Part shown: piece after piece, positions 30,660 to 44,257 of the stretch | How the letters are laid out: each line of letters opens with the position of its first letter | Numbering within the stretch: position 1 is the stretch's first letter | Assembly: GCA_024400275.1 (NCBI GenBank) | Contig: JAKSMY010000012.1 | Location: 1 to 44,408, forward strand | DNA length: 44,408 bases | Reading direction: 5' to 3' | Source: Paludibacteraceae bacterium | GTDB lineage: Bacteria; Bacteroidota; Bacteroidia; Bacteroidales; Paludibacteraceae | Notes under the pieces: generated by a model | Told to the model about the DNA's origin: nothing | What the model saw: only the letters and a program-made list of their open reading frames with translations | Databases searched by the model: none | Made by a program: the position numbers and the translations under genes

Positions 30660-33273
30660 CATAGAAGTAGTAGGTGCCCGGGTACACAACCTGAAGAACA
30701 TAACCGTCAGCATGCCTCAAGGTAAGTTGACGGTTATTACCGGATTAAGCGGCAGCGGCAAGAGTTCGCTGGCGTTTGATACTATTTTTGCAGAAGGGCA
30801 ACGGCGTTATTTGGAGACGTTCTCCAGTTACGCCCGTGGCTATATAGGTCAGTTGCAACGTCCCGACGTGGATAAGATATCCGGCTTGAGCCCGGTAATC
30901 AGTATAGACCAAAAAACGACAGGCAGGAACCCGCGTTCAACGGTTGGCACGATAACCGAGGTGTATGATTTCCTCCGTCTGCTTTACGCCCGTGCCGGCA
31001 CGGCCTATTCGTACCGGACCGGCAAGGAAATGATTCAGATGAACGATGAGGAGATCGTACAACATATCGTGAAAGACTATGCCGGACAGAAAATCCTACT
31101 GCTGGCTCCTTTGGTACAAGGGCGAAAAGGACATTACCGTGAACTGTTGGATTCGGTTCGGAAAAAAGGCTACCTGCATGTGCGCGTAGATGGCGAGGTG
31201 GTGGAACTGTATCAGGGAATGAAAGTGGACCGCTATCAAAACCACTTTATAGAGGTAGTGATAGACAGACTGAAAGTGGGAACACAGGGCGATGCCGTAG
31301 ATGAGAAGAGATTATTGGAATCGGTGAATAAAGCCATGCTGGTGGGTGACGGGCTGATTATGATTCTCCCCCAACAGTCAGATGTCAATTGTCAGTTATC
31401 AACTATCCACTCTCCCCGTTTTTTCTCGCGCAACATGATGGACCCTGAAACAGGGTTGAGTTACCGTCAGGCAGCTCCGCATACTTTCTCGTTCAATAGT
31501 CCCAGCGGTTGGTGCCCGTGCTGCAAAGGACTCGGAAAAGTTAAGGCGAACGAAAACGCAAAAGCAGACGTAAACGATATAATCCACGATGAGGAAAACT
31601 GGTTTGAACGGCTGGTGGAGGCTGTGAAGGAGAACGATAACGCAAACGAGAACGAGGACGAGATTTGGCAGGAGTGCCCGGTGTGTCACGGTCAGCGGTT
31701 GAATAAGGAAGCATTGAGTTATCGCATAGGGGGCAAGAACATAGCCGAATTGGCAGAGATGGATATAGATATGCTGCTGGACTTTTTGCAATCATTGTGC
31801 ATCGTGCATTGTCAATCGTCAACCAAAAAAGCCATTGCCGAACCGATTGTGAAAGAGATTTGCGGACGACTGCATTTCATGCTGAGTGTGGGACTGAATT
31901 ATCTGAACCTGAACCGTTCGTCGGATAGTCTGAGTGGCGGAGAAAGTCAGCGTATCCGTCTGGCAACACAGATAGGGTCACGGTTGGTGAATGTGCTGTA
32001 TATATTGGATGAACCCTCAATCGGCTTGCACCAGCGCGATAACCAGCGGCTGATAGATAGTCTGAAGGAGTTGCGCGACATGGGCAATACGGTGCTGGTG
32101 GTGGAGCATGACGAGCAGATGATGCGCCAAGCCGATTATGTGGTGGACATAGGTCCCCGTGCCGGACGATTGGGAGGCGAAGTGGTGTTTGCCGGTACGC
32201 CTGCCCAAATGCTCAAAGCCGATACCCTAACTGCCCAGTATCTGAGAGGGGAGAAGGTGTGCCTTTCGGGCAATCGGGCAATCGGGCAATCAAGCCATCG
32301 AATCCGCCTAAGCGGCTGCCGTGGCAATAACCTGAAAAACATTTCCGTGGAGTTTCCGCTGGGTAGTATGATATGCGTTACCGGCGTAAGCGGCAGCGGT
32401 AAATCAACACTAATCAACCAAACCCTGTATCCTATTTTGCGCCACCAACTGCATAGAAGTTTGCAAAAACCGCTGGCATATGACAAGATAGAGGGTGTTG
32501 AATATATAGACAAAGTGGTGGCTGTGGATCAGTCGCCGATTGGACGTACCCCACGCAGCAATCCGGCAACCTATACGAATGTGTTTACCGATATACGTGA
32601 TTTATTTGCCCAACTGCCGGAATCCCGTATTCGCGCTTGGCGACCCGGACGCTTCTCGTTCAATACCCCCGGTGGCAGGTGTGAAGAATGTACGGGAAAC
32701 GGTTATAAAACGATCCGGATGCATTTCCTGCCTGATGTGTACGTGCCTTGTGAAGCGTGTGGCGGCACCCGATACCAGAAAGAGACCTTGGAAGTGAGGT
32801 TCAAAGGCAAGACAATAGCCGATGTGCTGGACATGACTGTCAACCAGGCCGTTGAGTTCTTTGAGAGCCAGCCGCATATACTGAAGAAAATAAAAACCAT
32901 TCAGGACGTAGGTTTAGGTTATGTCAAATTGGGGCAGTCCTCCACTACGTTAAGCGGCGGCGAGAGTCAACGTATGAAACTGGCTACCGAGTTGAGCAAA
33001 CCCTCTACAGGAAGAACAGTGTATATATTGGACGAACCCACAACAGGTTTGCATTTCGAGGACATACGAATCTTGATGCAGGTGCTGCGCCGATTGACGG
33101 AGCAGGGCAATACGGTGATTATCATTGAACATAACCCCGATGTTATCAAAGTATCGGATTGGATTATCGATATGGGACCGGAAGGCGGACGAGGCGGAGG
33201 CGAACTGGTCGCTGAAGGTACATTGGAAGATATACGGAAAAATAAACGTTCCCTAACAGGACAATATGTATAA
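30625..33273 (+). CDS. uvrA: Excinuclease ABC subunit A, with reduced insertion domain
   Basis: 882 aa, the damage-recognition ATPase of nucleotide excision repair. Walker A motifs are GLSGSGKSS and GVSGSGKST, signatures LSGGESQRIRLA and LSGGESQRMKLA, Walker B LYILDEPSIGLH and VYILDEPTTGLH. Zinc cysteine pairs are CPCC/CPVC and CEEC/CEAC. The UvrB-binding region (APLVQGRKGHYRELLDSVRK) is present. The part between the first zinc pairs, which holds the insertion domain, is only about 60 residues against roughly 150 in E. coli. Micro-repeats lie in frame at residues about 251-263, 309-313, 337-345, 390-399 and 548-555. The ATG at 30625 overlaps pepO by 35 bases; no better start is visible before the conserved IEVVGARVHNLKNI. 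The stop abuts tsaD. Confidence 0.95.
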   Translation: MFPKRNVSTSGNIEVVGARVHNLKNITVSMPQGKLTVITGLSGSGKSSLAFDTIFAEGQRRYLETFSSYARGYIGQLQRPDVDKISGLSPVISIDQKTTGRNPRSTVGTITEVYDFLRLLYARAGTAYSYRTGKEMIQMNDEEIVQHIVKDYAGQKILLLAPLVQGRKGHYRELLDSVRKKGYLHVRVDGEVVELYQGMKVDRYQNHFIEVVIDRLKVGTQGDAVDEKRLLESVNKAMLVGDGLIMILPQQSDVNCQLSTIHSPRFFSRNMMDPETGLSYRQAAPHTFSFNSPSGWCPCCKGLGKVKANENAKADVNDIIHDEENWFERLVEAVKENDNANENEDEIWQECPVCHGQRLNKEALSYRIGGKNIAELAEMDIDMLLDFLQSLCIVHCQSSTKKAIAEPIVKEICGRLHFMLSVGLNYLNLNRSSDSLSGGESQRIRLATQIGSRLVNVLYILDEPSIGLHQRDNQRLIDSLKELRDMGNTVLVVEHDEQMMRQADYVVDIGPRAGRLGGEVVFAGTPAQMLKADTLTAQYLRGEKVCLSGNRAIGQSSHRIRLSGCRGNNLKNISVEFPLGSMICVTGVSGSGKSTLINQTLYPILRHQLHRSLQKPLAYDKIEGVEYIDKVVAVDQSPIGRTPRSNPATYTNVFTDIRDLFAQLPESRIRAWRPGRFSFNTPGGRCEECTGNGYKTIRMHFLPDVYVPCEACGGTRYQKETLEVRFKGKTIADVLDMTVNQAVEFFESQPHILKKIKTIQDVGLGYVKLGQSSTTLSGGESQRMKLATELSKPSTGRTVYILDEPTTGLHFEDIRILMQVLRRLTEQGNTVIIIEHNPDVIKVSDWIIDMGPEGGRGGGELVAEGTLEDIRKNKRSLTGQYV
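31376..31420 (+). repeat. In-frame micro-repeat in uvrA (NCQLST type)
   Basis: TGTCAATTGTCAGTTATC and the following AACTATCCACTC form degenerate tandem units, encoding SDVNCQLSTIHSP. They lie where UvrA proteins normally pass directly from the LP turn to RFFS(K/R)N, so the stretch looks inserted. Confidence 0.6.
31547..31665 (+). repeat. In-frame AACGNNAACGC micro-repeats in uvrA (NENAN type)
   Basis: Two patches, GCGAACGAAAACGCAAAAGC near 31547 and AACGATAACGCAAACGAGAA near 31632, encode ANENAKA and ENDNANENED. They fall inside the shortened insertion-domain region. The same word, encoding NANENANEN, occurs in the DUF3987 gene at 43211-43242. Confidence 0.7.
31792..31824 (+). repeat. In-frame GTGCATTGTCAA micro-repeat in uvrA
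   Basis: TCATTGTGCATCGTGCATTG followed by TCAATCGTCAACC encodes SLCIVHCQSST. The identical DNA family is found at 35850 and 42984, where it is read from the other strand as NAQCTM. Confidence 0.75.
32267..32290 (+). repeat. 8-bp x 3 tandem repeat in uvrA
   Basis: CGGGCAAT is repeated three times exactly, 24 bases in total, so the frame is kept. It encodes GNRAIGQS in the linker before the second ATPase half (RIRLSGCRGNNLKNI). Confidence 0.85.
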
Positions 33274-34350
33274 ATGGATATAATAATTTTAGCTATTGAA
33301 TCAAGTTGCGATGATACATCGGCTGCCGTCATCAAAGACGGACTGCTGATGAGCAATGTGATTGCCTCTCAAAGCGTACATGAAGAATTTGGCGGGGTGG
33401 TGCCGGAGTTGGCTTCGCGCGCCCATCAGCAGAATATCATGCCGGTGGTAGATACGGCATTGCGTCGTGCGGGAGTAGATAAATCGGAACTGTCGGCTAT
33501 TGCCTTTACGCGTGGTCCGGGCTTGTTGGGTTCGCTGTTGGTGGGTACCAGTTTTGCCAAAGGCTTGGCACTGTCGCTGCATATCCCCTTGGTGGAAGTG
33601 AACCACCTGCAGGGGCATATCATGGCGCATTTTGTGGAGCCCTCGCCCGAATATATAGCCACCAATCCCAAACTGCAAGGTGTTGAGATTCGTCACCCCC
33701 AGTTCCCGTTCCTCTGTCTGTTGGTTAGCGGCGGTAATTCGCAGATTGTGAAAGTAGATGCCTATAACAAAATGCAGATAATCGGTCAGACAATTGATGA
33801 CGCTGCCGGAGAGGCGTTTGATAAATGTGCCAAAGTGATGGGGCTGCCTTACCCGGGCGGTCCGTGGATAGACAAACTTGCCAAATCGGGTAATGCTGCG
33901 GCTTTCCCGTTTGCCAAACCCAATATAGCCGGTTATGACTATTCGTTCTCCGGCTTGAAAACATCGTTTCTCTATACCTTGCGCGATTTGATGAAAGAAC
34001 ATAAGGTGGAAACGGTGGAAGAACTTTACGGGCATATTCCCAACCTGAAAGAAGATTTATGTGCTGCTTTGCAGACCACGATAATTGATATATTGCTGAA
34101 AAAAGTAAAAAAAGCAGCCAAAGATTTAGGTATTACCCGGATAGCCGTTGCCGGTGGCGTGAGTGCCAATTCGGGATTGCGCGATGCTATTGCGGATATG
34201 TGTTGTCGTCAGCATTGGGAGGCGTTTATTCCGCCTTTCTCCTTCACCACCGATAACGCCGCTATGATAGCCCAAGCCGGTTATTATAAGTATAAAGACA
34301 ACGATTTATGTTCCATTGATGCCGTCCCGTATGCCAAAACGACTATTTGA
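33274..34350 (+). CDS. tsaD: tRNA N6-threonylcarbamoyladenosine transferase TsaD
   Basis: 358 aa. Transfers the threonylcarbamoyl group onto A37 of tRNAs reading ANN codons, together with TsaB and TsaE. The start is LAIESSCDDTSAAV. Metal-binding histidines are in VNHLQGHIMAHF, the ATP-site glycine motif is LLVSGGNSQIV, then DDAAGEAFDKCAK, YPGGPWIDKLA and the C-terminal GGVSANSGLR with FTTDNAAMIA. It starts on the base after the uvrA stop and its last 32 bases overlap the exosortase gene. Full length, with no repeats inserted. Confidence 0.98.
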   Translation: MDIIILAIESSCDDTSAAVIKDGLLMSNVIASQSVHEEFGGVVPELASRAHQQNIMPVVDTALRRAGVDKSELSAIAFTRGPGLLGSLLVGTSFAKGLALSLHIPLVEVNHLQGHIMAHFVEPSPEYIATNPKLQGVEIRHPQFPFLCLLVSGGNSQIVKVDAYNKMQIIGQTIDDAAGEAFDKCAKVMGLPYPGGPWIDKLAKSGNAAAFPFAKPNIAGYDYSFSGLKTSFLYTLRDLMKEHKVETVEELYGHIPNLKEDLCAALQTTIIDILLKKVKKAAKDLGITRIAVAGGVSANSGLRDAIADMCCRQHWEAFIPPFSFTTDNAAMIAQAGYYKYKDNDLCSIDAVPYAKTTI

Positions 34351-34909
34351 CACATTGCGTCCTTACCAAGATATATTGGTGTTTGTCGTTGCCTTGTTGG
34401 TCGCCAATTGTTTCTGGAAATACACCGTTCATGGCGATGAAGCCGGCTACGGCGATGTGACGTGGTTCGGCTTGGTGCTGACTCCTTTTTTTGATATGGT
34501 GGCGCAGCAGGTGGCGCAAACGGTATATGCGTTGGTGGCTGTGGTGCGTGATACCGTTCACCTACAGGGAACCCATCTGTTCTTTGACTCAGGCAACGGG
34601 TCACATATCGTGTGGAGTTGTACGCCTATCAAGCAAAGTTTTATATGGCTGTGCCTGATACTGGCGGCTCGCGGTCCGTGGGTGCATAAGATATGGTATA
34701 TTCCGGCAGGCTGGGTGGTGATATACGGAATCAATATAGTGCGTATAGCTGCCATTTCGCTCATAATAGAACATCACCCCGAATTATTCGAGGTGATGCA
34801 CACATACGTTTTCAAATACGTTTTTTACGGACTTATGTTCTTGATGTGGTTGCTGTGGATCGAGTGTCTGGTTAAGCATTTCACTGCCGACTCAGATACG
34901 CGTGCATAG
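34319..34909 (+). CDS. Exosortase/archaeosortase family protein
   Basis: 196 aa, a polytopic membrane protein with about five hydrophobic segments. The exosortase catalytic residues are recognisable in order: Cys101 in WSCTPIKQSF, Arg142 in GINIVRIAAI, His161 in EVMHTYVFKYVFYG. Exosortases are thought to cleave C-terminal sorting signals of exported proteins at the membrane and pass them on. The start is ATG 34319 or ATG 34331 (MPKRLF), both inside the end of tsaD, so translation is probably coupled. The 3' end overlaps the convergent oxidoreductase gene by 29 bases. A candidate substrate is encoded at 26505. Family assignment is good; the substrate is inference. Confidence 0.85.
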   Translation: MPSRMPKRLFDTLRPYQDILVFVVALLVANCFWKYTVHGDEAGYGDVTWFGLVLTPFFDMVAQQVAQTVYALVAVVRDTVHLQGTHLFFDSGNGSHIVWSCTPIKQSFIWLCLILAARGPWVHKIWYIPAGWVVIYGINIVRIAAISLIIEHHPELFEVMHTYVFKYVFYGLMFLMWLLWIECLVKHFTADSDTRA

Positions 34910-37115
34910 CTTTGGCGGCTTTCCGTCCGTCGGACATGGCAAGAATGACGGTAGCCCCGCCGCGAACTATATCGCCTCCGGCAAAGAGGGTAGGTAGCGA
35001 ACTCTGCATCGTGTCTTCGTTTACAGCAATCGTGCCCTTTTTGCTAATCTCCAATCCGTCCACCGAATTGGGGATAAGAGGATTAGGACTGACACCTACG
35101 CTCACGATAACCAAATCCACAGGCAAGGTTATTGTTTTTCCCTCTACCGCTATCGGGCTGCGGCGACCTGACTCGTCAGGTTCACCCAGTTCCATCACTT
35201 GCAGCACGGCTTCTTTGACACGTCCGTTCTCGTCAGCATGATATTCAATGGGGTTGTGCAAGGTCATAAACTCTATGCCTTCTTCTTTGGCGTGACGCAC
35301 TTCTTCCACTCGGGCAGGCATCTCCTCCTCGCTGCGGCGGTAGATAATCATTGCGCGCTCTGCGCCGAGACGCTTGGCAGTACGGACAGCGTCCATTGCC
35401 GTATTACCGCCACCGATGACGGCTACGTTCTTGCCGTAGAGAAGCGGCGTATCGGTCATTTTATTGCCGGCATCCATCAGGTTGACGCGCGTCAGGTACT
35501 CGTTGCAACTCATCACGCCGTTCAGGTTCTCGCCGGGTATATTCATAAATCGGGGCAGACCGGCTCCCGAGCCGACAAAGACAGCAGCGTATCCCTGTGC
35601 CTTCAAATTGTCTATGGTCAATGTCTTACCGATGATAGTGTCCGTTTGAAACGATACACCCAACTGGCGCAGACCCTCAATCTCTTTATCTACGATGCGG
35701 TTAGGCAGACGGAACTCGGGAATACCGTATTTCAGTACACCGCCTATCTCGTGAAGTGCCTCAAAGACGGTAACCTGATAGCCGTATTTAGCCATGTCAC
35801 CGGCAAAAGCCAATCCGGAAGGACCACTGCCCACCACAGCAATCTTCTTATCATTGTGCATTGTGCATTGTGAACCGTGCATCGCGCTCTGCGCGTGATC
35901 AGCCACAAAACGTTCCAAGTAGCCGATGGCAACGGGTTGATGTCCCATTTTATGATGAATACAGCGTGCCTCACACTGTTTCTCCTGCGGGCATACACGT
36001 CCGCAAACTGCCGGCAGCGTACTGCTTTGCCGGATAATAGCGGCTGCCTCGTTGATATGCCCATGCTCCACTTGTTTGATAAAATCGGGAATGTGGATAT
36101 TGACGGGACAACCTTCTACGCAGGTCGGGTTCTTGCAGTTCAGGCAACGGTGGGCTTCGGTGACAGCCTGTTCCCATGTAAGACCTTGGTTCACTTCGGC
36201 ATGCATACTGTGTACACGGATCTCCGGTGCCAACTCGTTCATTTTTACACGAGGAATAGCCACACGCTCCTTGGGCTTGAGTTCATAATCCTTAATCCTT
36301 AATTCATAATCCTTCATTGCCTCGGCTTCCTCGGCTTTATAGGTGCGTAGCCGCGTCATCATCTCGTCCCAATTGACTTGGTGGGCATCAAATTCCGGTC
36401 CGTCTACGCACACGAACTTAGTCTGTCCGCCTACCGATACGCGGCAGGCTCCGCACATACCCGTGCCGTCCACCATGATGGTGTTGAGACTGGCATCGGT
36501 GGGGATGTTGTATTTGGCAGTGGTCAGGCTGACAAATTTCATCATGATAGCAGGACCGATGGTGATACATTTATCCACTTTCTCGCGTTGGATAACCTGC
36601 TCTACACCTACGGTAACTACGCCCTGTTGTCCCATGCTGCCGTCGTCGGTCATGATGATAACCTCGTCGGACCATTGAGCCAGTTCGTCCTTTAATATGA
36701 TAAGGTCTTTATTTCTTGCGGCAAGAACGGTGATTACCCGGTTTCCCGCTTTCTTTAGTGCTTCGGCAATAGGCAACATCGGAGCAGCCCCCACACCGCC
36801 GCAGGCACAAACAACCGTACCGAAATGCTCAATATGTGTGGCTTTGCCCAGTGGACCGACAATATCTTGCACTTGCTGACCGGGCTCCATCGCGCATAGT
36901 TTGGAAGAGGAAACGCCAATACGCTGAACGACCAACGTGATAGTGCCTTTGTCGGTATCGGCGGCACTGATGGTAAGTGGCATACGTTCGGAATGGTTAT
37001 CTACCCGAACGATGACGAAATGACCGGCACGGCGGCTACGGGCGATTAGTGGTGCTTCAATCACCAATTCGGCTACGTTGTCTGAGAAAAAACGTTTCGA
37101 GATAATGGTATTCAT
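34881..37115 (-). CDS. Fused FNR-like (DHOD B/NfnA type) and GltA-type NADPH oxidoreductase
   Basis: 744 aa from the ATG at 37115 (MNTIISKRFF); the longer frame lacks a sensible start, because the predicted transcript begins near 37133. Residues 1-250 are a ferredoxin-reductase-like FAD/NAD module with cysteines CGACRVSVGGQTKFVC for a [2Fe-2S] cluster. Residues about 290-400 hold CLNCKNPTCVEGCPVN and CGRVCPQEKQCEARC for [4Fe-4S] clusters, followed by FAD site VVGSGPSGLAFAGDMA and NADPH site VIGGGNTAMDAVRTAKRLG. Databases name such fusions DHOD B NAD-binding subunit/NADPH-dependent glutamate synthase; related NfnAB transfers electrons between NADH, NADPH and ferredoxin. Micro-repeats encode KDYELRIKDYELK (about 268-280) at the domain junction and SQCTMHN (about 411-422). 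Confidence 0.93.
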   Translation of the reverse strand: MNTIISKRFFSDNVAELVIEAPLIARSRRAGHFVIVRVDNHSERMPLTISAADTDKGTITLVVQRIGVSSSKLCAMEPGQQVQDIVGPLGKATHIEHFGTVVCACGGVGAAPMLPIAEALKKAGNRVITVLAARNKDLIILKDELAQWSDEVIIMTDDGSMGQQGVVTVGVEQVIQREKVDKCITIGPAIMMKFVSLTTAKYNIPTDASLNTIMVDGTGMCGACRVSVGGQTKFVCVDGPEFDAHQVNWDEMMTRLRTYKAEEAEAMKDYELRIKDYELKPKERVAIPRVKMNELAPEIRVHSMHAEVNQGLTWEQAVTEAHRCLNCKNPTCVEGCPVNIHIPDFIKQVEHGHINEAAAIIRQSSTLPAVCGRVCPQEKQCEARCIHHKMGHQPVAIGYLERFVADHAQSAMHGSQCTMHNDKKIAVVGSGPSGLAFAGDMAKYGYQVTVFEALHEIGGVLKYGIPEFRLPNRIVDKEIEGLRQLGVSFQTDTIIGKTLTIDNLKAQGYAAVFVGSGAGLPRFMNIPGENLNGVMSCNEYLTRVNLMDAGNKMTDTPLLYGKNVAVIGGGNTAMDAVRTAKRLGAERAMIIYRRSEEEMPARVEEVRHAKEEGIEFMTLHNPIEYHADENGRVKEAVLQVMELGEPDESGRRSPIAVEGKTITLPVDLVIVSVGVSPNPLIPNSVDGLEISKKGTIAVNEDTMQSSLPTLFAGGDIVRGGATVILAMSDGRKAAKAMHAYLSRQ
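35850..35897 (-). repeat. In-frame micro-repeat and mini-hairpin in the FNR/GltA gene
   Basis: On the plus strand, TTGTGCATTGTGCATTGTG is followed by a small hairpin GCGC-TCT-GCGC (35884-35894). Read on the minus strand this gives AQSAMHGSQCTMHNDKK, immediately before the FAD motif IAVVGSGPSG. It is the same DNA word as in uvrA (31792) and the DUF3987 gene (42984). Confidence 0.7.
36281..36314 (-). repeat. Tandem TTCATAATCCTTAATCC repeat in the FNR/GltA gene
   Basis: TTCATAATCC and CCTTAATCCTTAA units occur in tandem; on the coding strand they give KDYELRIKDYELK. They sit exactly in the linker between the FNR half and the GltA half. Confidence 0.7.
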
Positions 37116-37139
37116 AGTGAATGTATCTGAATGGAGACG

Positions 37140-37171
37140 CAAAGTTACATTTTTTTTTGCATATGTGCAAA
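37140..37171 (-). promoter_or_regulatory. Minus-strand promoter of the FNR/GltA gene
   Basis: On the minus strand TTTG (37171-37168), a 20-base spacer and TAACTTTG (37147-37140) match the consensus. The element overlaps the plus-strand promoter for the transporter (37156-37187) across about half its length, so polymerases cannot occupy both at once. Confidence 0.8.
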
Positions 37172-37187
37172 TATTTTTGTACTTTTG
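37156..37187 (+). promoter_or_regulatory. Plus-strand promoter of the NSS transporter
   Basis: TTTG at 37156-37159, a 20-base spacer and TACTTTTG at 37180-37187. Transcription should start near 37194, leaving a leader of only about 15 bases before the ATG at 37209. It interlocks with the divergent promoter 37140-37171. Confidence 0.8.
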
Positions 37188-37208
37188 CACGGTAAATTGT
37201 TATAGAGT

Positions 37209-38609
37209 ATGAAATCAGATGCTTTTTCGTCACGGATAGGTGTGATCTTGGCAGCGGCCGGAGGTGCTGTCGGATTGGGTAATATATGGAAGTTCCCCTA
37301 TATGTTGGGGCAGAATGGCGGAGGTGCCTTTTTGTTGGTGTATATCCTCTGTGTGGCTGTTTTCGGTGTGCCGTTGATGATGACGGAATTTATGATGGGT
37401 AAACGCAGCGGCAAATCGGTGTTCAGCGCGTACGAGAGTTTGGTAAACAACCGTCATTGGAACTGGTTGCCGTTTGTTACGTTCTTTTCCACATTGCTGA
37501 TTACCGGGTTTTATTGTGTCGTTACCGGCTGGTGCATCTGCTATTTGTATTATTCTTGCGTCGGGATATTCCACAACATAGATGTCAATGCGGCTAACGC
37601 GCTTTTTTCGGGTCTTGCTCAAAACGGTTGGCAATCGTTTGCTTGCAGTGCCGTAGCGGTTGCGTGTGCAGCAGGTATCTTGTGGGTTGGAGTAGGCAAG
37701 GGTATAGAGCAATTAAGCAAGATTCTCATGCCGCTGCTGCTGGTTATTCTGTTAGTCCTGATTGTGCGCGTAACCATGTTGGAAGGTGCTTTTCGCGGAG
37801 TGGCGTTCCTTTTCGCTTCGGACCTGAGTAAGATAACACCCCGTATTATTCTGGACGCGATGGGGCAGTGCTTTTATTCGTTGAGTATAGCCATGGGAGC
37901 CTTGATTACCTACGGTGCCTATATGCCTAAAAATCAGAATGTAGCCTCTACCACATTACAAATCGTTGTTCTGGATACTCTCGTGGCGGTATTGGCAGGC
38001 TGCGCCATTTTTCCGGCTGTCTTTGCCTACGGATTTAGCCCTACGGAAGGTCCTCAGTTGGTCTTCTGTGTATTGCCGATGGTCTTTGACCGGATGGCGG
38101 GGGGAATGTTTTTTGCGGCACTCTTTTTTGCTCTGCTGACCATAGCGGCAGTAACGTCTGCCATGTCGCTCATAGAGATGCAGACGGCTTTCTTGTACGA
38201 TTGGTCGCGTGCCCGCACGGAACGTCGTGCGTTGGCTGGAAATACCGATATACCTCGCTCTCTGTCACGGCACGAAGCAATCAGTATCTCGTCGCTCTGT
38301 TCGCTACTGGTGGCTTTCGTATGTGCATGGTCGATGAGTGATGCGGCTCCTTGGCTGACGTGGGGCGGTGTCAATGCTTTTGATTGGGTGGACCGCCTTA
38401 CATCGCATATCACTTTGCCTTCGATAGCCTTCTTTACGGTCCTTTTCTTCGGCTGGTATGTCAGTCGCGACGTTGTGGTAGCCGAGATGCGTCTTTACCA
38501 TGGGGTCAAACCATGGAACATCCTCGCGTACCGCTTTCTGATACGCTGGTTTATACCGATTATTATTCTGCTTATTTTCCTAAACGGTATAGGTGTTATT
38601 TCGTTGTAA
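37209..38609 (+). CDS. Sodium-dependent transporter, NSS/SNF family
   Basis: 466 aa, about eleven or twelve membrane segments. The family signature is at the start: RIGVILAAAGGAVGLGNIWK followed by FPYMLGQNGGGAFLLVY, which forms the sodium and substrate site of LeuT-like transporters. Members import amino acids or related amines with sodium; the substrate here cannot be told. The leader is very short and the promoter overlaps that of the divergent oxidoreductase gene. The stop is 6 bases from that of the convergent deoC, with no terminator between. Length and layout are normal. Confidence 0.95.
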   Translation: MKSDAFSSRIGVILAAAGGAVGLGNIWKFPYMLGQNGGGAFLLVYILCVAVFGVPLMMTEFMMGKRSGKSVFSAYESLVNNRHWNWLPFVTFFSTLLITGFYCVVTGWCICYLYYSCVGIFHNIDVNAANALFSGLAQNGWQSFACSAVAVACAAGILWVGVGKGIEQLSKILMPLLLVILLVLIVRVTMLEGAFRGVAFLFASDLSKITPRIILDAMGQCFYSLSIAMGALITYGAYMPKNQNVASTTLQIVVLDTLVAVLAGCAIFPAVFAYGFSPTEGPQLVFCVLPMVFDRMAGGMFFAALFFALLTIAAVTSAMSLIEMQTAFLYDWSRARTERRALAGNTDIPRSLSRHEAISISSLCSLLVAFVCAWSMSDAAPWLTWGGVNAFDWVDRLTSHITLPSIAFFTVLFFGWYVSRDVVVAEMRLYHGVKPWNILAYRFLIRWFIPIIILLIFLNGIGVISL

Positions 38610-38615
38610 AGACAG

Positions 38616-39491
38616 TTAGAAGTATTTGGTTTCTGCTCCAACTATGGATGTTAACAGGTTGTTGGCCAATCTGCTGGCACCGAAACGGAATGATTGGTTA
38701 TTCAGCCACTCTTGACCCAGAATTTCTTTTACCAACGTATAGTGCGTGACGGCTTCTTCGGTCGTGGAAACGCCTCCTGCCGGCTTGTAGCATATTTTCT
38801 GCCCTGTTTGGCTTTTCCATGCTTTTATCGCGGAGCACATGACGTAGGTGGCTTCAGGGGTGGCATTGACTTTGATTTTGCCGGTAGATGTTTTGATAAA
38901 ATCTGCACCGGCAGCCATTGCCAAAATGGATGCTTTCCATATATTCTCTGCCGTTGCCAATGCGCCTGTTTCCAGGATAACTTTGAGATGTTTGTCTCCG
39001 CAGACTGCTTTTATCTCGCTTATCTCGTCAAATACCTCCTGATAGCGTCCTTCCAGGAATTTGCCGACGGAAATGACAATATCTATCTCTGAGGCACCTG
39101 CTTTGATTGCCAGTGCCGTTTCTGCCACTTTGACTTCGATAAAGGTCTGCGAAGCCGGAAATCCGGCACTGACACAAGCCACACCGATACCTTTCGGCAG
39201 ATAGGCTGCCGCCACATGGGCCAAAGCCGGATACACGCACATGGCAGCCACATTGGGCAGGTCGGGGTAGTGCTTGGGGAAATCCGCTACTTTTTTAGCC
39301 ATATTTTCCACTTTGGCTATGGTGTCTTCTCCGTTGAGTGTGGTCAAGTCGATTTGGTTAAGACATTGCATCCACACCGGCCGGTTGTTGTTTTCGGAGA
39401 AATGTTGGTCCAAGATTGTTTTTGTGGCAACAGCCACTTCGGCATCCGTCATAGTGAACGGATATGCCGCAAAAAGTTCATTAAAATCCAT
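38616..39491 (-). CDS. deoC: Deoxyribose-phosphate aldolase
   Basis: 291 aa. Cleaves 2-deoxyribose 5-phosphate into glyceraldehyde 3-phosphate and acetaldehyde in deoxynucleoside salvage. The Schiff-base lysine lies in GADFIKTSTGK; the second active-site lysine region is KICYKPAGGVST. The upstream Asp/Lys motif is seen in EIDIVISVGKFLEGRY. It is the last gene of a minus-strand operon after psd (20-base gap) and converges on the NSS transporter. Normal length for the Bacteroidota form, which is longer than E. coli DeoC. Confidence 0.96.
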   Translation of the reverse strand: MDFNELFAAYPFTMTDAEVAVATKTILDQHFSENNNRPVWMQCLNQIDLTTLNGEDTIAKVENMAKKVADFPKHYPDLPNVAAMCVYPALAHVAAAYLPKGIGVACVSAGFPASQTFIEVKVAETALAIKAGASEIDIVISVGKFLEGRYQEVFDEISEIKAVCGDKHLKVILETGALATAENIWKASILAMAAGADFIKTSTGKIKVNATPEATYVMCSAIKAWKSQTGQKICYKPAGGVSTTEEAVTHYTLVKEILGQEWLNNQSFRFGASRLANNLLTSIVGAETKYF

Positions 39492-39511
39492 ATTCGACGA
39501 TAATTAAATTG

Positions 39512-40201
39512 CTATTCCGGAAGACGGCCTATAATAGTCTCGTTGCCCCGTACGGATTCTCCGATGGCTACAAAGATTTCGGTGTTCATCGGCAGATACA
39601 TGTCCACGCGCGAACCTAATTTGATAAATCCCATGTGCTCGTTGCGGTGGCTCTGCTTGCCCACTTTGGCATACGTTACGATACGCCTTGCCATAGCCCC
39701 TGCAATCTGTCTGACGGCTATCTGAAGTTTAGACGGCGTTTCTATAACCACCAGCGAACGTTCGTTCTCGGTGGAAGATTTGGGCAGCCAGGCTCCCATG
39801 TGACGGCCTTTCTGGTGTTCGCTGCGAACGATAGTCCCTTCCACGGGGTACCAGTTGGCGTGGACGTTAAAAGGAGACATGAAAATACTGACTTGCAGTC
39901 TCTGTTCATGGAAAATCTCATCTTCCATGGTCGGCTCTATTACTACCACATGCCCGTCTGCCGGTGCCAAAAGAAAATTAGGGTCGGTAATATCTACCAC
40001 ACGTACCGGATTGCGGAAGAAATAGGCGACAAAAACCAGCAGGAGCATCATGGCTATTAAGGTAATGGCAAACAACCAATGATGCTGTTGATAGACAAAA
40101 ATGTACATGGGAATGTTAATCATCAGCAATAGCAGTACAATACCCAGTATGGAATGTCTGCCCTCTTGATGAATGCGATGGTGAAGATGTTGGTGTTTCA
40201 T
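39512..40201 (-). CDS. psd: Phosphatidylserine decarboxylase proenzyme
   Basis: 229 aa, the short, archaetidylserine-decarboxylase-like type. Makes phosphatidylethanolamine at the inner membrane. Two N-terminal hydrophobic segments (ILGIVLLLLMINIPMYIFVY and WLFAITLIAMMLLLVFVAYF) anchor it. The self-cleavage site is LGS in MGFIKLGSRVDMYLP, where the serine becomes the pyruvoyl group. Core motifs are APADGHVVVIEP, SIFMSPFNVHANWYPVEG and HMGAWLPKSSTENERS. It starts 4 bases after the SRPBCC gene and is followed by deoC in the same operon. Confidence 0.95.
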   Translation of the reverse strand: MKHQHLHHRIHQEGRHSILGIVLLLLMINIPMYIFVYQQHHWLFAITLIAMMLLLVFVAYFFRNPVRVVDITDPNFLLAPADGHVVVIEPTMEDEIFHEQRLQVSIFMSPFNVHANWYPVEGTIVRSEHQKGRHMGAWLPKSSTENERSLVVIETPSKLQIAVRQIAGAMARRIVTYAKVGKQSHRNEHMGFIKLGSRVDMYLPMNTEIFVAIGESVRGNETIIGRLPE

Positions 40202-40205
40202 AGTA

Positions 40206-40637
40206 TTATATCCATTGATTATAAGGGAATTGCGCTAACATTTGTGCCGCCTCGTCCAGCCCCTTTTGCATCTTTTTGTCCAACATAAACTTGAACATCA
40301 TGGGGATGTCGGCTTTCAGCGTAAGCCGGATGCGGGTGTCAAGAGGGGCTATCTGCTTCAGCTGAATCCAGAAATTAGCCTCCACCGGCGCACCTTCGGC
40401 TCCGAATTTGATGGTGTCGTTCTCGATGCGATCGACAATTCGGATAGTTATTTTTTGTCCTAAGCCGTCTACTTTCATGCGGATATAGTCCGCCGCTATC
40501 TCCATTTCCTGTACCTTGTCTTGGGGAATCATGTCTTTTACGCGGTTCAGGTTTTCCAGATTGGACAACACCTTATAAACGTTGGCGGCACTGTTGGGGA
40601 TAGAGCATACTTGGCTCTCGTATTTTACTTCTGACAT
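40206..40637 (-). CDS. SRPBCC (START-like) family protein
   Basis: 143 aa from the ATG at 40637 (MSEVKYESQV). This start overlaps the end of pyrE by 13 bases in another frame, and the longer frame would extend further into pyrE. The fold is indicated by SIPNSAANVYKVLSNLENLN, VDGLGQKITIRIVDRIEND and the C-terminal helix KMQKGLDEAAQMLAQF, as in small polyketide-cyclase-like lipid-binding proteins. The ligand and role are unknown. It sits between pyrE and psd in an operon; the pyrE-SRPBCC pair is, from memory, a common Bacteroidales arrangement. Confidence 0.8.
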   Translation of the reverse strand: MSEVKYESQVCSIPNSAANVYKVLSNLENLNRVKDMIPQDKVQEMEIAADYIRMKVDGLGQKITIRIVDRIENDTIKFGAEGAPVEANFWIQLKQIAPLDTRIRLTLKADIPMMFKFMLDKKMQKGLDEAAQMLAQFPYNQWI

Positions 40638-41269
40638 TCTTGGTTCCAATTTAGAGGATCGGCGTGCCACGTGTTCAGCACATCGATTACCTCGGATGAA
40701 TATTGATTGGTTGATTGTAATTGCTGTATCAGGGCGGGGAAATTGGTCAGTGCTATCAGTTTGACATCTACATCGGTCAGACTCTCCCGTGCAACGGGAA
40801 AATCGTAATCAAACAGCGTGATGGCACCCAATACACTGCATCCGCTGTTTCGCAACGCTTCTACCGCACGCAAAATATGTTCGCCCATGTTGACCTGATT
40901 CTCGATAATAACCACGTTCTGACTCAGCCGCAGATTGCCCTCTATCTGGTTCTCCATTCCGTGATTCTTGGGATAGGGATATACGGAAACAAACGGCAGG
41001 GCTAACTGGTCCGCTACCAGAATACCGTGGGCAATGGCATTGGTGGCTATTCCTGCTATAATCTCTGCCTCCGGAAAATATTCCGCCACCAGTTGAGCCA
41101 TCTTCCTGCGGAAGAAATTGCGCGTGGCTGGGTAACTGAGAATCTTACGGTCGTCTAAATAGATAGGCGCACGCCAACCGTTTCCCCACGTAAAGGGATT
41201 GCCCGTTTGTATGCTGACTGCTTTCAGATTAACAAACTCATTGGCGGCTTGTTGCTCAAAGGGTGTCAT
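40625..41269 (-). CDS. pyrE: Orotate phosphoribosyltransferase-like protein with altered PRPP loop
   Basis: 214 aa. The overall match to PyrE is good: NPFTWGNGWRAPIYLDDRK, LSYPATRNFF, the PKNHGMENQIEG flexible-loop region and TLFDYDFPVA. PyrE joins orotate to PRPP in pyrimidine synthesis. The PRPP-binding loop, normally VVVVEDLxSTGGS, reads VVIIENQVNMGEH: the second acidic residue is Asn and the TGG core is lost. The usual arginine of the YVR motif is also absent (SVYPYPKNHG). The gene may encode a catalytically altered or inactive form, or the phylum's local variant. It leads the operon pyrE-SRPBCC-psd-deoC from a clear promoter. Confidence 0.82.
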   Translation of the reverse strand: MTPFEQQAANEFVNLKAVSIQTGNPFTWGNGWRAPIYLDDRKILSYPATRNFFRRKMAQLVAEYFPEAEIIAGIATNAIAHGILVADQLALPFVSVYPYPKNHGMENQIEGNLRLSQNVVIIENQVNMGEHILRAVEALRNSGCSVLGAITLFDYDFPVARESLTDVDVKLIALTNFPALIQQLQSTNQYSSEVIDVLNTWHADPLNWNQECQK

Positions 41270-41291
41270 TATATTCGATCAAAAGAACGTG

Positions 41292-41323
41292 CAAAGATAC
41301 AAATTTATTTTCAAATATGCAAA
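41292..41323 (-). promoter_or_regulatory. Promoter of the pyrE-SRPBCC-psd-deoC operon
   Basis: On the minus strand TTTG (41323-41320), a 20-base spacer and TATCTTTG (41299-41292). The -33 element lies directly after the stop codon of the upstream lipoprotein gene (41325), so no terminator separates them. The leader to the ATG at 41269 is short. Confidence 0.85.
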
Positions 41324-41324
41324 T

Positions 41325-42062
41325 TTATTTGCGTTCGGGGTGCTTTTTCTCGTACTTTTTTATTTGCAGATCGGAAACATGGATAGCGCGCTCCAGCGCA
41401 TCTATGTTGCTCATCAACACGGCTAATCGGTACGTGTCCGCCAACGCCTGCTTCTCCCCGTTGCTCAGATAATAGGAACAGCGCGCTTCGTGACGGACAT
41501 CAAGCGCGGTAACCCGGATACGCTCCTCCGGATGTGAGGAGATAAAAGCCAGTATCCGGTTGGCGTTCTCTCCGTCTATGGTCAGTATTTCGTGCCAACC
41601 TTCCGCCTCGAAAGCATGGTTACTGCCTTCTTCCTCTACAAAATCTTCACCCGCCTCCACACGGACGGTTTGCTGCCGGCACGCAACACTGCCGAAATAA
41701 TAGGATTGGACACTCGTCTGACGGTTGTCGGACACGTACGCCTGAAGATAGTTGCGGCTGGCGTTGCCGGTCGTCTGCAACAGGCGGTGAACATAATGAC
41801 CGTAATCTTCGTTCTTCTCGTCCTTGCTGTAAACGAACGAGGTCAGCATAGAATCGGTCCGGGGTAGCAGTAACTGCAATACCGAATCGGAATAGTGCAT
41901 ATTCTGTTGGGCACGGACATACGTAAGGCTGTCTTTGCGCGCTTTCTCAAGACGCATCTGCTCAACGGCGGAGGGACGGTGAGTGCATGACGATAAGACC
42001 AACATACCTGTCAGCCATAGCCCGTAATACCAACCGCATGCTTTGAAAATAGGGTGTCTCAT
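41325..42062 (-). CDS. Putative lipoprotein of unknown function
   Basis: 245 aa from the ATG at 42062 (MRHPIFKACGWYYGLWLTGM). The longer frame would begin upstream of the predicted transcription start and is rejected. The lipobox is LVLSSC, so the mature protein would be lipid-anchored. The mature part is charged, with tyrosine-rich stretches (RNYLQAYVSDNRQTSVQSYY) and an acidic patch DFVEEEGSN. The C-terminal third (ILAFISSHPEERIRVTALDV) faintly recalls OmpA-like domains but lacks clear motifs. It ends in a lysine-rich tail. No family is recognised. It has its own promoter. Confidence 0.75.
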   Translation of the reverse strand: MRHPIFKACGWYYGLWLTGMLVLSSCTHRPSAVEQMRLEKARKDSLTYVRAQQNMHYSDSVLQLLLPRTDSMLTSFVYSKDEKNEDYGHYVHRLLQTTGNASRNYLQAYVSDNRQTSVQSYYFGSVACRQQTVRVEAGEDFVEEEGSNHAFEAEGWHEILTIDGENANRILAFISSHPEERIRVTALDVRHEARCSYYLSNGEKQALADTYRLAVLMSNIDALERAIHVSDLQIKKYEKKHPERK

Positions 42063-42085
42063 AGTGCTTAATCTGAATTCGGCTG

Positions 42086-42117
42086 CAAAGATACAAAAAA
42101 AAATAGTCATACGCAAA
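42086..42117 (-). promoter_or_regulatory. Promoter of the lipoprotein gene
   Basis: On the minus strand TTTG (42117-42114), a 20-base spacer and TATCTTTG (42093-42086). This places the transcription start near 42079 and fixes the coding start at 42062. Confidence 0.85.
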
Positions 42118-42131
42118 TTTTTCTATAATCT

Positions 42132-42215
42132 CTCCCCTCTAAACTGTAGGCGCTTGCGCCGTTCTATTATCAACGCAAGCCCCGCTTGCTATCAACAAGC
42201 GCGTCAGCGCTACAA
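42132..42215. repeat. Mini-hairpin cassette cluster
   Basis: CTCTAAACTGTAG leads to hairpin GGCGC/GCGCC (42149-42160), then GCAAGC/GCTTGC (42175-42189) and AGCGC/GCGCT (42198-42211), joined by ATCAACAA-like linkers. Flanks match R1-R3 (CTAAACTGTAG before, CTACAACA after) while the stems differ from them with both arms changed together. No gene is visible here; it lies between two minus-strand genes. Confidence 0.75.
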
Positions 42216-42264
42216 CAATCTGCGTCTTCTTCTCCTCTGCCTGCAACATAACATCAACATAACA

Positions 42265-42567
42265 TCACCGTACTTTCTCCCTACCTTCTACCAGTTGCGC
42301 CAATATGTAGCGATACCTGCTGGTGTATCCTTTGCCTTTCCAATCTTGGTACTCGTCTTTTCTCCCCTCGTCTTTATTGATTTGCGAGGCGGTCTTGGTC
42401 AGTTCACCGAAACTCCTGCGGTACGCTTTCTCGTGCTCCGAAAAGTCTTTCTCTGTTCGTGGGTGAAGCAGATAATAGGTGTGTCCGCCTCTAAAACTTA
42501 CTCGTGAATAGTGTTTCACTTTACCGTGTGCCCTTTCTACTGGGGCTATATATTCTACTTTTGCCAT
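42265..42567 (-). CDS. Small protein of unknown function
   Basis: 100 aa from the ATG at 42567 (MAKVEYIAPVERAHGKVKHY); a longer frame reaches into the hairpin at 42589 and is less likely. Rich in Lys, Arg and Tyr, without signal peptide or membrane segment: FRGGHTYYLLHPRTEKDFSE and DEYQDWKGKGYTSRYRYIL. From memory, the MAKxEYxAP start is shared with small proteins near mobile-type genes in Bacteroidales, but I cannot confirm a family. It lies downstream of the DUF3987 gene with no promoter motif between, so probably co-transcribed with it, behind two hairpins. Confidence 0.65.
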   Translation of the reverse strand: MAKVEYIAPVERAHGKVKHYSRVSFRGGHTYYLLHPRTEKDFSEHEKAYRRSFGELTKTASQINKDEGRKDEYQDWKGKGYTSRYRYILAQLVEGREKVR

Positions 42568-42588
42568 AATTAAATCTTTTGTTGTGTA

Positions 42589-42679
42589 GCGAAAGTGCAA
42601 TTGCATTTTGCACTTTCGCTTATAATTGATTGATTTTTAATAACTTGTTTAGAAAATGCAAAATGCAATTGCATTTTCT
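42589..42679. promoter_or_regulatory. Twin hairpins sharing the core TGCAATTGCA
   Basis: Hairpin one: GCGAAAGTGCAA (42589-42600) with TTGCACTTTCGC (42608-42619), 12 bp, loop 7. Hairpin two: AGAAAATGCAA (42651-42661) with TTGCATTTTCT (42669-42679), 11 bp, loop 7. They lie between the DUF3987 stop and the small gene. Each contains TGCAATTGCA-like palindromic sequence. No T-tract follows either on the minus strand, so an intrinsic terminator is unlikely; a processing, translation-control or protein-binding site is possible. Confidence 0.65.
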
Positions 42680-42681
42680 TT

Positions 42682-43974
42682 TTATGCTGCTTTTTCGTAT
42701 TGTCCGTGACTGGCATGTTTTATCAATCCTTTGTCGGACCATTCTACTAACCAATATTTCGCCATTCGTTCACTCACGCCCATCTGCTGAGCCAATTTCA
42801 CGCACTCGCCGGTACTGAATTCGATTGGCAGACTGGCCAGGAACGTGGATTTTTGGTAACTGCCCTTCACTTCCGGCACCGCCAATTGGTCCTTGCCGCC
42901 TATCTGGTTATACGCATCGGCAGCATTCAGCAGCAGTTTGGTCGAAATCACCATCGCCGTCTCAAAATCCTCATCTGAACATGTCATCGTGCATTGTGCA
43001 TTGTCAATCGTCATCGTGCATTGTGCATTGTCAACCGTCAACCTTCTCAACACACTTAATATACATGCCACGCGCACATGCGTGGTGGCATTGCGTACGA
43101 TAGTGGCATGAAAGCCGTCGCCCAACTGTTGCAGATAGGTTCCGTACTCGCTCTCCATCACGGTGCCTATTCGTTGTGCCTGCTCGGCGGTCAGGCAGAA
43201 CTCAATCCTTCCGTTCTCGTTTGCGTTTTCGTTTGCGTTATCATACCATTTTTTCAGTTGGGTTGCCCAGTAGCCGTAGATACGTTCTGTCTCCTGCCCT
43301 GCGTTGCTGGGCATAAACACGCTACCGTCAAATGGTTGGCACTCGCGTACCATCAGCATATTCAGACGGGAGAAAAAGCCGTTTTCCGCACTCGGCACTA
43401 ATTTCTCAAACTGGCTGCACGTACCTGTCAGTAGCATACTCACTTGGGGTTCTTGGATATACGTCACTCCACTCTTGATGCGGCCTTTGGACAAGGTCTC
43501 ATGTTCGGCACATTTACGCAAAGCGGTGTTGTAGTTGGTGCAGGACGATTTCCAGATGTCGGTTATCACGCTACCCTCTGTCTCAAACAGCAGTCCCTTG
43601 CCGTCTTGCTCGTGCAGTTGTTCATAAAAAGACGGATACGTACTGTCGCCGGGTATCAGTAGCGGCTGGTCTTGGTGGATAGGTTCCACCAGTTTGGTGG
43701 CCAAGTCTGCTATGCCTTTCCCGCTGGCAGCACCTGCCATAATAAAAGTGAGCAGATTGGGATAGTAGCGTTTGCCGTAGTGGGCATAACGGAACGACAC
43801 GTTGTTCATTACCGAGGACGTGGCTGTTAACACACTCATCAGCAGCATGTCCCGTGTGGACGGAGTCTTGGCTACACTCAGGCATTCTTGCAACATCTGG
43901 GGTAAGCACTCCATGTTCAGATTAGGCGTGATCTGTAAATCATCTGCCTCAAGGTTTAAATTTTCCGTTTTCAT
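42682..43974 (-). CDS. DUF3987-like P-loop protein with C-terminal winged helix
   Basis: 430 aa. The N-terminal part resembles DUF3987, found in Bacteroidota mobile and phage-derived regions: LTFIMAGAASGKGIADLATK carries a Walker A-like loop (residues 81-87), followed by GLLFETEGSVITDIW and VSMLLTGTCSQFEKLV. The C-terminus (STGECVKLAQQMGVSERMAK onward) looks like a winged-helix DNA-binding domain. A role in replication or mobilisation is suggested by family context only. Two micro-repeats are in frame: NANENANEN (about 245-255) and a 27-bp x 2 repeat giving two copies of DNAQCTMT (313-330). The start follows a TTAATTG-rich leader. Confidence 0.75.
   Translation of the reverse strand: MKTENLNLEADDLQITPNLNMECLPQMLQECLSVAKTPSTRDMLLMSVLTATSSVMNNVSFRYAHYGKRYYPNLLTFIMAGAASGKGIADLATKLVEPIHQDQPLLIPGDSTYPSFYEQLHEQDGKGLLFETEGSVITDIWKSSCTNYNTALRKCAEHETLSKGRIKSGVTYIQEPQVSMLLTGTCSQFEKLVPSAENGFFSRLNMLMVRECQPFDGSVFMPSNAGQETERIYGYWATQLKKWYDNANENANENGRIEFCLTAEQAQRIGTVMESEYGTYLQQLGDGFHATIVRNATTHVRVACILSVLRRLTVDNAQCTMTIDNAQCTMTCSDEDFETAMVISTKLLLNAADAYNQIGGKDQLAVPEVKGSYQKSTFLASLPIEFSTGECVKLAQQMGVSERMAKYWLVEWSDKGLIKHASHGQYEKAA
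42984..43037 (-). repeat. 27-bp x 2 in-frame tandem repeat in the DUF3987 gene
   Basis: Two units of 27 bases (42984-43010, 43011-43037) beginning TCATCGTGCATTGTGCATTG differ at one position. They encode VDNAQCTMT and IDNAQCTMT on the minus strand. The word GTGCATTGTGCATTGT is shared with uvrA and the FNR/GltA gene. Confidence 0.85.
43211..43242 (-). repeat. In-frame NENAN-type micro-repeat in the DUF3987 gene
   Basis: The coding strand carries AACGCAAACGAAAACGC units, giving DNANENANENG between WY and RIEF. It is the same word as in uvrA (31547-31665), in the same orientation relative to the gene. Confidence 0.75.
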
Positions 43975-44011: not shown

Positions 44012-44257
44012 GTACATATCAAAATGGTACATAATTTATCTGTTACCTGTTATCTGTACTGCGAAGCGATGTTAAGAAGCGTTATAACGGTGGCGAAGCC
44101 CCCTTAACGGAGCGAAGCCGGTACATATCAAAATGGTACATAATTTATCTGTTACCTGTTATCTGTACTGCGAAGCGATGTTAAGAAGCGTTATAACGGT
44201 GGCGAAGCCCCCTTAACGGAGCCCCCTTAACGGAGCGAAGCCGGTACATATCAACAT
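44012..44257. repeat. 109-bp tandem repeat, two copies plus a partial third
   Basis: Copy one spans 44012-44120 and copy two 44121-44243, the second longer by an exact 14-base internal duplication (GCCCCCTTAACGGA). A third partial copy starts GTACATATCAA at 44244. Inside the unit the word GCGAAGC recurs. It lies in the predicted leader of the DUF3987 gene. No open frame looks real. Confidence 0.85.

Follow-up and report, generated by a model that had tools for sequence, protein, structure and literature searches.

A 33-bp micro-repeat dispersed through genes and intergenic regions of gut Paludibacteraceae-like bacteria

A 33-bp DNA word recurs at many sites in a Paludibacteraceae-like bacterium and its relatives, often in frame within unrelated, conserved protein genes. 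We read it, with a probability of roughly 0.6, as a dispersed micro-element that is copied at the DNA level, mostly purged from genes, and tolerated in protein loops. The word came to light in a 44,408-nucleotide contig from a Paludibacteraceae metagenome assembly (the window, here meaning this whole stretch of DNA), whose first-pass annotation proposed a spreading micro-repeat. That reading is supported, because neither the comparison of orthologues nor the genome-wide count refuted it. The proposed spread is inferred from copy number and species-specific sites.

The word and its hosts in the window

The annotation reported four occurrences of a 19-bp word: one in uvrA, one in an FNR/GltA gene, and two in a DUF3987 gene. 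The word is indeed found at positions 31797 and 35856 (one mismatch each) and at 42989 and 43016 (both exact), and Pfam confirms the hosts. With up to three mismatches allowed, five occurrences are seen in the window, against 0.03 expected by chance; none of 100 shuffles reached five.

All four copies are present, but one is degenerate and one is truncated. The uvrA gene (30625..33273, forward strand; Pfam UvrA_inter and ABC_tran) holds one 33-bp copy (31793..31825, forward strand; score 23), read in sense as SLCIVHCQSST within a variable linker. The copy in the fused FNR/GltA-like gene (34881..37190, reverse strand; DHODB Fe-S, Fer4_20, and Pyr_redox_2 domains) is degenerate (35852..35884, forward strand; score 21), and is read from the opposite strand as HGSQCTMHN. 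The DUF3987 gene (42682..43974, reverse strand; Pfam match) hosts a tandem pair: a copy cut to 27 bp (42985..43011, forward strand; antisense IDNAQCTM), and a second copy scoring 32/33 (43012..43044, forward strand; antisense LTVDNAQCTM).

Each site had been described as in frame and in a linker or loop; all of them fall inside ORFs with matches to known families, and most of the DUF3987 pair is modelled as coil. In the AlphaFold2 model of that protein (mean pLDDT 85), residues 312-327, which make up most of the doubled word, are predicted as coil, flanked by a helix on one side and a strand on the other (block pLDDT 66). The FNR/GltA model is poor (pLDDT 54.7) and carries no weight here.

The same genes carry other repeats. 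Two further uvrA loops contain, respectively, a GAGAACG/GCAAACG-type short repeat (31630..31662, forward strand; ENDNANENEDE), at a position where relatives differ in sequence, and an 8-bp tandem repeat, TCGGGCAA (32263..32295, forward strand), in place of which relatives have other repeats or plain loops. A TTCTCG/TTTGCG short repeat occupies a second DUF3987 linker (43214..43239, forward strand; NANENANEN). An ATTAAGG/ATTATGA 7-bp repeat (KDYELRIKDYELK; 36276..36317, reverse strand) lies close to where the FNR and GltA halves meet. The two halves form one gene in the window and are split by stop codons in many more distant genomes (L122-L137); close relatives are fused without such a repeat. 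Because this AT-rich 7-bp repeat sits at the junction in the window, it may have helped the fusion.

Elsewhere in the window are a 109-bp tandem duplication beyond the DUF3987 gene (44012-44222; 1.9 copies, 100% match) and two 11-bp-period arrays (12449-12484 and 12678-12726) near the start of a 4686-codon ORF. No Rfam family reaches threshold anywhere in the window, and phage records gave no match to positions 42900-43100; the exact word is present in one viral contig.

A bounded unit, its copy number and its clade

The 19-bp word is real as the core of a larger unit. Across 56 copies from the clade, conservation runs from 4 bases before the 19-mer to 9-10 bases after it, with background outside both ends, so that the true unit is 33 bp. 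It is non-palindromic and built of 7-bp units: CATC, then GTGCATT twice, GTCAACC twice, and a final G. When over-represented 12-mers were counted blind across 392 kb of G001 (JAKSNJ, record title Paludibacteraceae, from horse faeces), the top 12-mer lay inside the word. The same 392 kb yielded 35 copies in an ungapped scan, compared with none in 200 kb of shuffled DNA; the window yielded 4, and 379 kb of G164 yielded 3.

The word is not restricted to three genes; further hosts occur across G001 and G005 (JAGHSG, record title Bacteroidales). Sixteen whole genomes were searched for the 28 central bp with at most three mismatches, the reversed pattern serving as control. Near-matches numbered 58 in G001 and 40 in G005, the two densest genomes, followed by G011 (5), G002 (3), G016 (3), and G164 (2); the other ten genomes gave none, and neither did the control. 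The exact 19-mer occurs in 7 of 300 genomes of the G001 family, 28 times in G001 and once or twice in each of the other six. An exact scan of the genome collection returned 76 stretches with the word, mostly in G001 and G005, and other word-bearing records are titled Candidatus Colicola. All of the genomes examined are metagenome assemblies. In a tree of one gene (the C-terminal half of UvrA), the window groups with G001, G005, G002, and G008, and this set of five has full support. The label Paludibacteraceae-like is based on record titles and this single gene.

The 33-bp form as such is a property of this clade, because in other taxa (28 copies) the 19-mer terminates longer generic arrays that reach upstream. 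The same 19-mer lies within generic 7-bp arrays in MAGs titled Gracilibacteraceae, Caldilineaceae, and Oscillospiraceae (L015, L036, L044, L055, L075, L076), where it may reflect transfer, convergence, or binning error.

The word belongs to a wider population of short-period repeats. Period 7 is a genome-wide signature of G001, whose 392 kb contain 30 arrays at period 7 (14 of them in genes), 10 at period 11, and 6, 8, and 3 at periods 14, 21, and 22, with one each at periods 9, 12, and 20. None was found at periods 4, 5, 6, 8, or 10, and random sequence gave none at any lag tested. Purity is equal within genes (0.933, n=14) and outside them (0.934, n=16). Many different period-7 words coexist in G001, and these other arrays are purer than the 33-bp word. 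Three of 269 G001 genes start with such an array, among them the neighbours L178:3333-5195 and L178:5254-5964, whose signal-peptide-like starts, MKRLLYLLSVICYLLPANAQ and MKRLLCLLSFICYLLSVSADD, come from TTATCTG-type arrays. The balance of periods differs between genomes: G025 has 4 period-7 arrays (none in genes) and G164 has 11 (3 in genes), whereas G168 has 2 but 23 at period 11. The latter (L301-L320) include arrays such as TATCTATCGTA; 1 of the 23 lies in a gene.

Genes, reading frames and the same loops in relatives

Copies are depleted in genes. Of the 34 copies that could be scored in the 392-kb G001 sample, 21 fall within predicted genes, compared with 90% coding DNA (p 7e-6), and genic density per kb is about one-sixth of intergenic density; single gene assignments may be wrong, since the genes come from our own simple hexamer model. 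Four frames of the consensus, three sense and one antisense, are free of stops, and 20 of the 21 genic copies use one of these; the exception matches just part of the word. When only exact copies are counted, G001 has 17 of its 27 within genes and G005 has 18 of its 21. The polar antisense reading VDNAQCT accounts for 16 of 33 exact copies, against one in four expected (p 0.003; two copies at predicted gene starts excluded), but for antisense copies as a whole the figure in the unbiased G001 sample is 7/21 (p 0.26), and a preference for this reading is not established.

A Pfam scan of 30 proteins (three without a family, one gene scanned twice, and about five carrying other arrays) named a broad range of word hosts: a KdsB-type cytidylyltransferase, IspD, RsgA, a RecQ-type helicase, CoaE, CinA, a SpoU methylase, a gyrase/topoisomerase IV A subunit, NIF3, NqrA, glycine dehydrogenase, a FecCD permease, a pseudouridine synthase, riboflavin kinase, RuvA, Mfd (TRCF), and a GH26 enzyme. 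Another, a tRNA synthetase, combines TGS and SAD domains and is judged from this combination to be of threonyl type. Six sites are common to G001 and G005: NqrA, RuvA, FecCD, the tRNA synthetase, SpoU, and the N-terminus of a TPR protein. N-termini elsewhere also hold copies (for example, MKRLLFIIVTLTLCIVHCQSSTAF), and in some core enzymes the word adjoins catalytic motifs. A possible enrichment in repair-type genes was noticed among the hosts (UvrA, RecQ, RuvA, Mfd, and gyrase/topoisomerase IV A, with MutS2 carrying another repeat).

The annotation held that the likeness lies in the DNA, and the hosts agree: their families are unrelated, and several frames are in use, antisense included. Shared protein ancestry of the hosts is ruled out by these unrelated families and by the use of three sense frames and one antisense frame. 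Chance is ruled out by the window shuffles, the random-sequence arrays, and the shuffled-DNA scan.

The residues are not shared by orthologues. Of the 13 other rows covering the UvrA linker, G001 alone has the word; the linker is shorter by 1-3 residues in 11 rows and longer, with another repeat, in G010. In this Prevotellaceae MAG, a quite different inverted-type repeat (CCCTCCCTTGTAGGGAGGGG) lies in frame at the same UvrA linker (L090). Among the best 120 of 7997 FNR homologues, the word's peptide occurs only in the window's own entry, P0003, and P0032; among the best 120 of 736 DUF3987 homologues, it occurs only in the window's own entry and P0126. The remaining homologues listed for both proteins have unrelated linkers, some of them other repeats. 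In the same DUF3987 set, the linker is the word in P0121 and P0126, a PSPEGEG-type or similar peptide in P0122, P0123, P0124, and P0130, short and plain in P0125, and other sequence in others. FNR linkers vary in the same way, and more distant genomes keep one 69-nt linker; a lag test pooled over 47 distinct FNR linkers, most of whose source genomes have the plain 69-nt form, gave no lag-7 peak.

Loops of RsgA, RecQ, MutS2, the tRNA synthetase, and KdsB were compared across 12 genomes, and in orthologues they are plain or otherwise filled. In RsgA, the turn directly before the DTPG motif shows five different fillings: G001 has the 33-bp word; G002, G008, and G164 share a CTCTAAA/CTCTCCA array; G005 has a CGATTCA array; G020 and G006 have one of AAATCGT type; and G016 has a palindrome. 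In G109 a CTCTAAA array is joined by other sequence, the loop is short in G011 and G168, and that of G092 is unclassified. MutS2 of G001 exceeds that of 7 of 11 other genomes by 17 residues, through a 7/21-bp array immediately before the P-loop strand. In G001 only, two RecQ loops are filled: one by the word and the other, before the VCTNAFGMG motif, by a long TCAACTA-type array. The tRNA synthetase site has the word in G001, G005, and G008, lacks it in G164, G002, G168, G109, and G006, and has a palindromic repeat in G020; three genomes gave no match there.

The annotation described the word as inserted, a term that applies only in part. One RecQ loop appears, from its length, to fit a clean 33-bp gain: it measures 54 nt in G001 and 15-21 nt in 15 of 27 distinct loops listed, and in G168 it is exactly 33 nt shorter than in G001. 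A clean insertion would add 11 residues. A usable word-free relative was available for 21 of 48 word-bearing proteins, and the net change in these 21 pairs ranges from -1 to +14 residues, with a median of +3. The pairs count RuvA and SpoU from both MAGs; the RsgA comparator carries another array and the IspD comparator may; and one low-score genic match (L187, score 15) is probably ordinary homology. Because the median is +3 rather than +11, either native loop sequence was lost afterwards or the arrival of the word was coupled to a deletion. The available relatives are too divergent to tell these two apart or to reveal exact breakpoints, and a genus-wide search for the exact empty site found no closer species. 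The UvrA orthologues, only slightly shorter, likewise imply that native linker residues were also lost. Clean copying-in is thus supported for RecQ only, since the net change elsewhere is mostly below 33 bp.

Proposed spread of the word, rival explanations and known repeat systems

In the reading that we favour, a gut Paludibacteraceae-like lineage carries the 33-bp element within a wider vocabulary of micro-repeats with periods of 7 or 11. New copies would arise when the whole word is copied at the DNA level; the simplest transposase-free route would be the templated copying of filler or patches where DNA breaks or forks stall. Slippage by 7 bp would then lengthen or trim arrays. Most genic copies would be purged; the survivors have stop-free frames, keep the reading frame, and occupy loops, linkers, N-termini, and signal-peptide-like segments, where the word's peptide would be nearly neutral.

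The main rival to transposase-free copying is an unknown transposase. In that case a host transposase would act in trans on the word, which would be a miniature mobile element in the manner of an RPE, REP, or MITE. Fixed ends and many copies would suit such an element, as would the mixture of sites shared between genomes and species-specific sites, and the one RecQ loop whose size fits a clean gain; in-frame sites in conserved and repair genes are also told for REPs in excerpts of PMC3733652. We nevertheless consider a mobile element rather unlikely. The word forms no hairpin (DNA fold z-score +0.4, both strands), a result that also rules out a hairpin function, and it has no inverted ends by eye. 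A search for the Y1 (IS200/RAYT) transposase family gave no match in 10 of 12 possibly incomplete MAGs, G001 and G005 included; G016 has two matches, and G020 has one below the cut-off.

Ordinary microsatellites are an improbable source. Here polymerase slippage would act on the spot, and the likeness among sites would be convergence on easy 7-bp words. Many different period-7 words do coexist in G001, and excerpts of PMC4679880 rank heptamers as the top 5-11 nt class in most genomes and propose slippage. Independent slippage, however, would not be expected to yield a fixed order of unlike units with fixed ends at unrelated sites, and for this reason copying of the whole unit is preferred; the blind 12-mer count also speaks against convergence. 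Slippage may explain the purer arrays of other words.

A putative functional DNA site (an uptake signal, or a recombination or protein-binding site), kept by selection at many places, would account for the sharp bounds and for the exact 19-mer retained where G001 and G005 have sites in common, NqrA, RuvA, and FecCD among them. It is very hard to square with the many other words that occupy the same loops in relatives, with the very unequal copy number among near relatives (58, 40, 3, and 0), and with the depletion in genes. Although every genome is a metagenome assembly, an assembly artefact can be set aside almost entirely: independent MAGs share sites, frames are open through conserved domains that flank the word on both sides, and proteins from other sources contain the same peptide (P0003, P0032, and P0126).

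Together, these results suggest that very small repeats, as they spread, can reshape the proteins of bacteria. More tentatively, and at somewhat less than even odds, non-palindromic micro-words with a step of 7 bp (and 11 bp) might spread without a transposase in gut Bacteroidales as an interchangeable lexicon of loops, linkers, and signal peptides, through an undescribed copying process linked to repair or replication. Different words in the same orthologous loop are natural replicates for studying spread without an obvious transposase and the tolerance of loops, and for asking if linkers and signal peptides can arise from repeats. They also counsel caution, in that variable linkers in these genomes may derive from DNA repeats rather than from conserved protein features.

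No prior account of the word, or of in-frame 7-bp words in Bacteroidales, was found in the open-licence literature, surveyed mostly at title and abstract level. The best known protein-coding repeats in bacteria are the palindromic elements of Rickettsia and Wolbachia. The annotation likened the word to the Rickettsia elements, and the likeness holds for the effect but not for the structure. The available parts of PMC2229807 describe RPEs (Rickettsia, with likenesses in Wolbachia) as dispersed repeats that occupy many conserved protein genes in frame and occur in intergenic DNA as well; the word, too, is in frame in conserved protein genes. Those parts give RPEs a length of 105-146 bp, inverted ends, and long stem-loops, whereas the word consists of 33 bp of direct 7-bp units without a hairpin.

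REPs are closer in size. Excerpts of PMC3733652 give them 20-40 bp and high copy number, with some in genes that include uvrA and other repair genes, and the word matches both the length and, among its hosts, uvrA and other repair-type genes. REPs as described there form palindromic stem-loops, one end of which bears a GTAG or CGTC tag, and the GTAG type accompanies RAYT transposases. In contrast, the word has no stem-loop, the letters CGTC inside it tag no hairpin, and a RAYT gene was not found in the incomplete MAGs G001 and G005. As regards MITEs, inspection by eye shows no inverted ends on the word, and the available relatives are too far removed to reveal a target-site duplication.

Heptamer simple sequence repeats share the 7-bp period. 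Examples in the available portions of PMC4679880 and PMC4692102 are TAACTGA in Beggiatoaceae and others and GGGAATC in Xanthomonas and Nostoc; such repeats are described there as common, genome-wide, taxonomically patchy, and mainly intergenic arrays of one unit. The word differs from these in two respects: it is a fixed 33 bp of mixed units instead of a variable number of one pure unit; and, though denser between genes, it has more than half of its scorable copies (21/34) within them.
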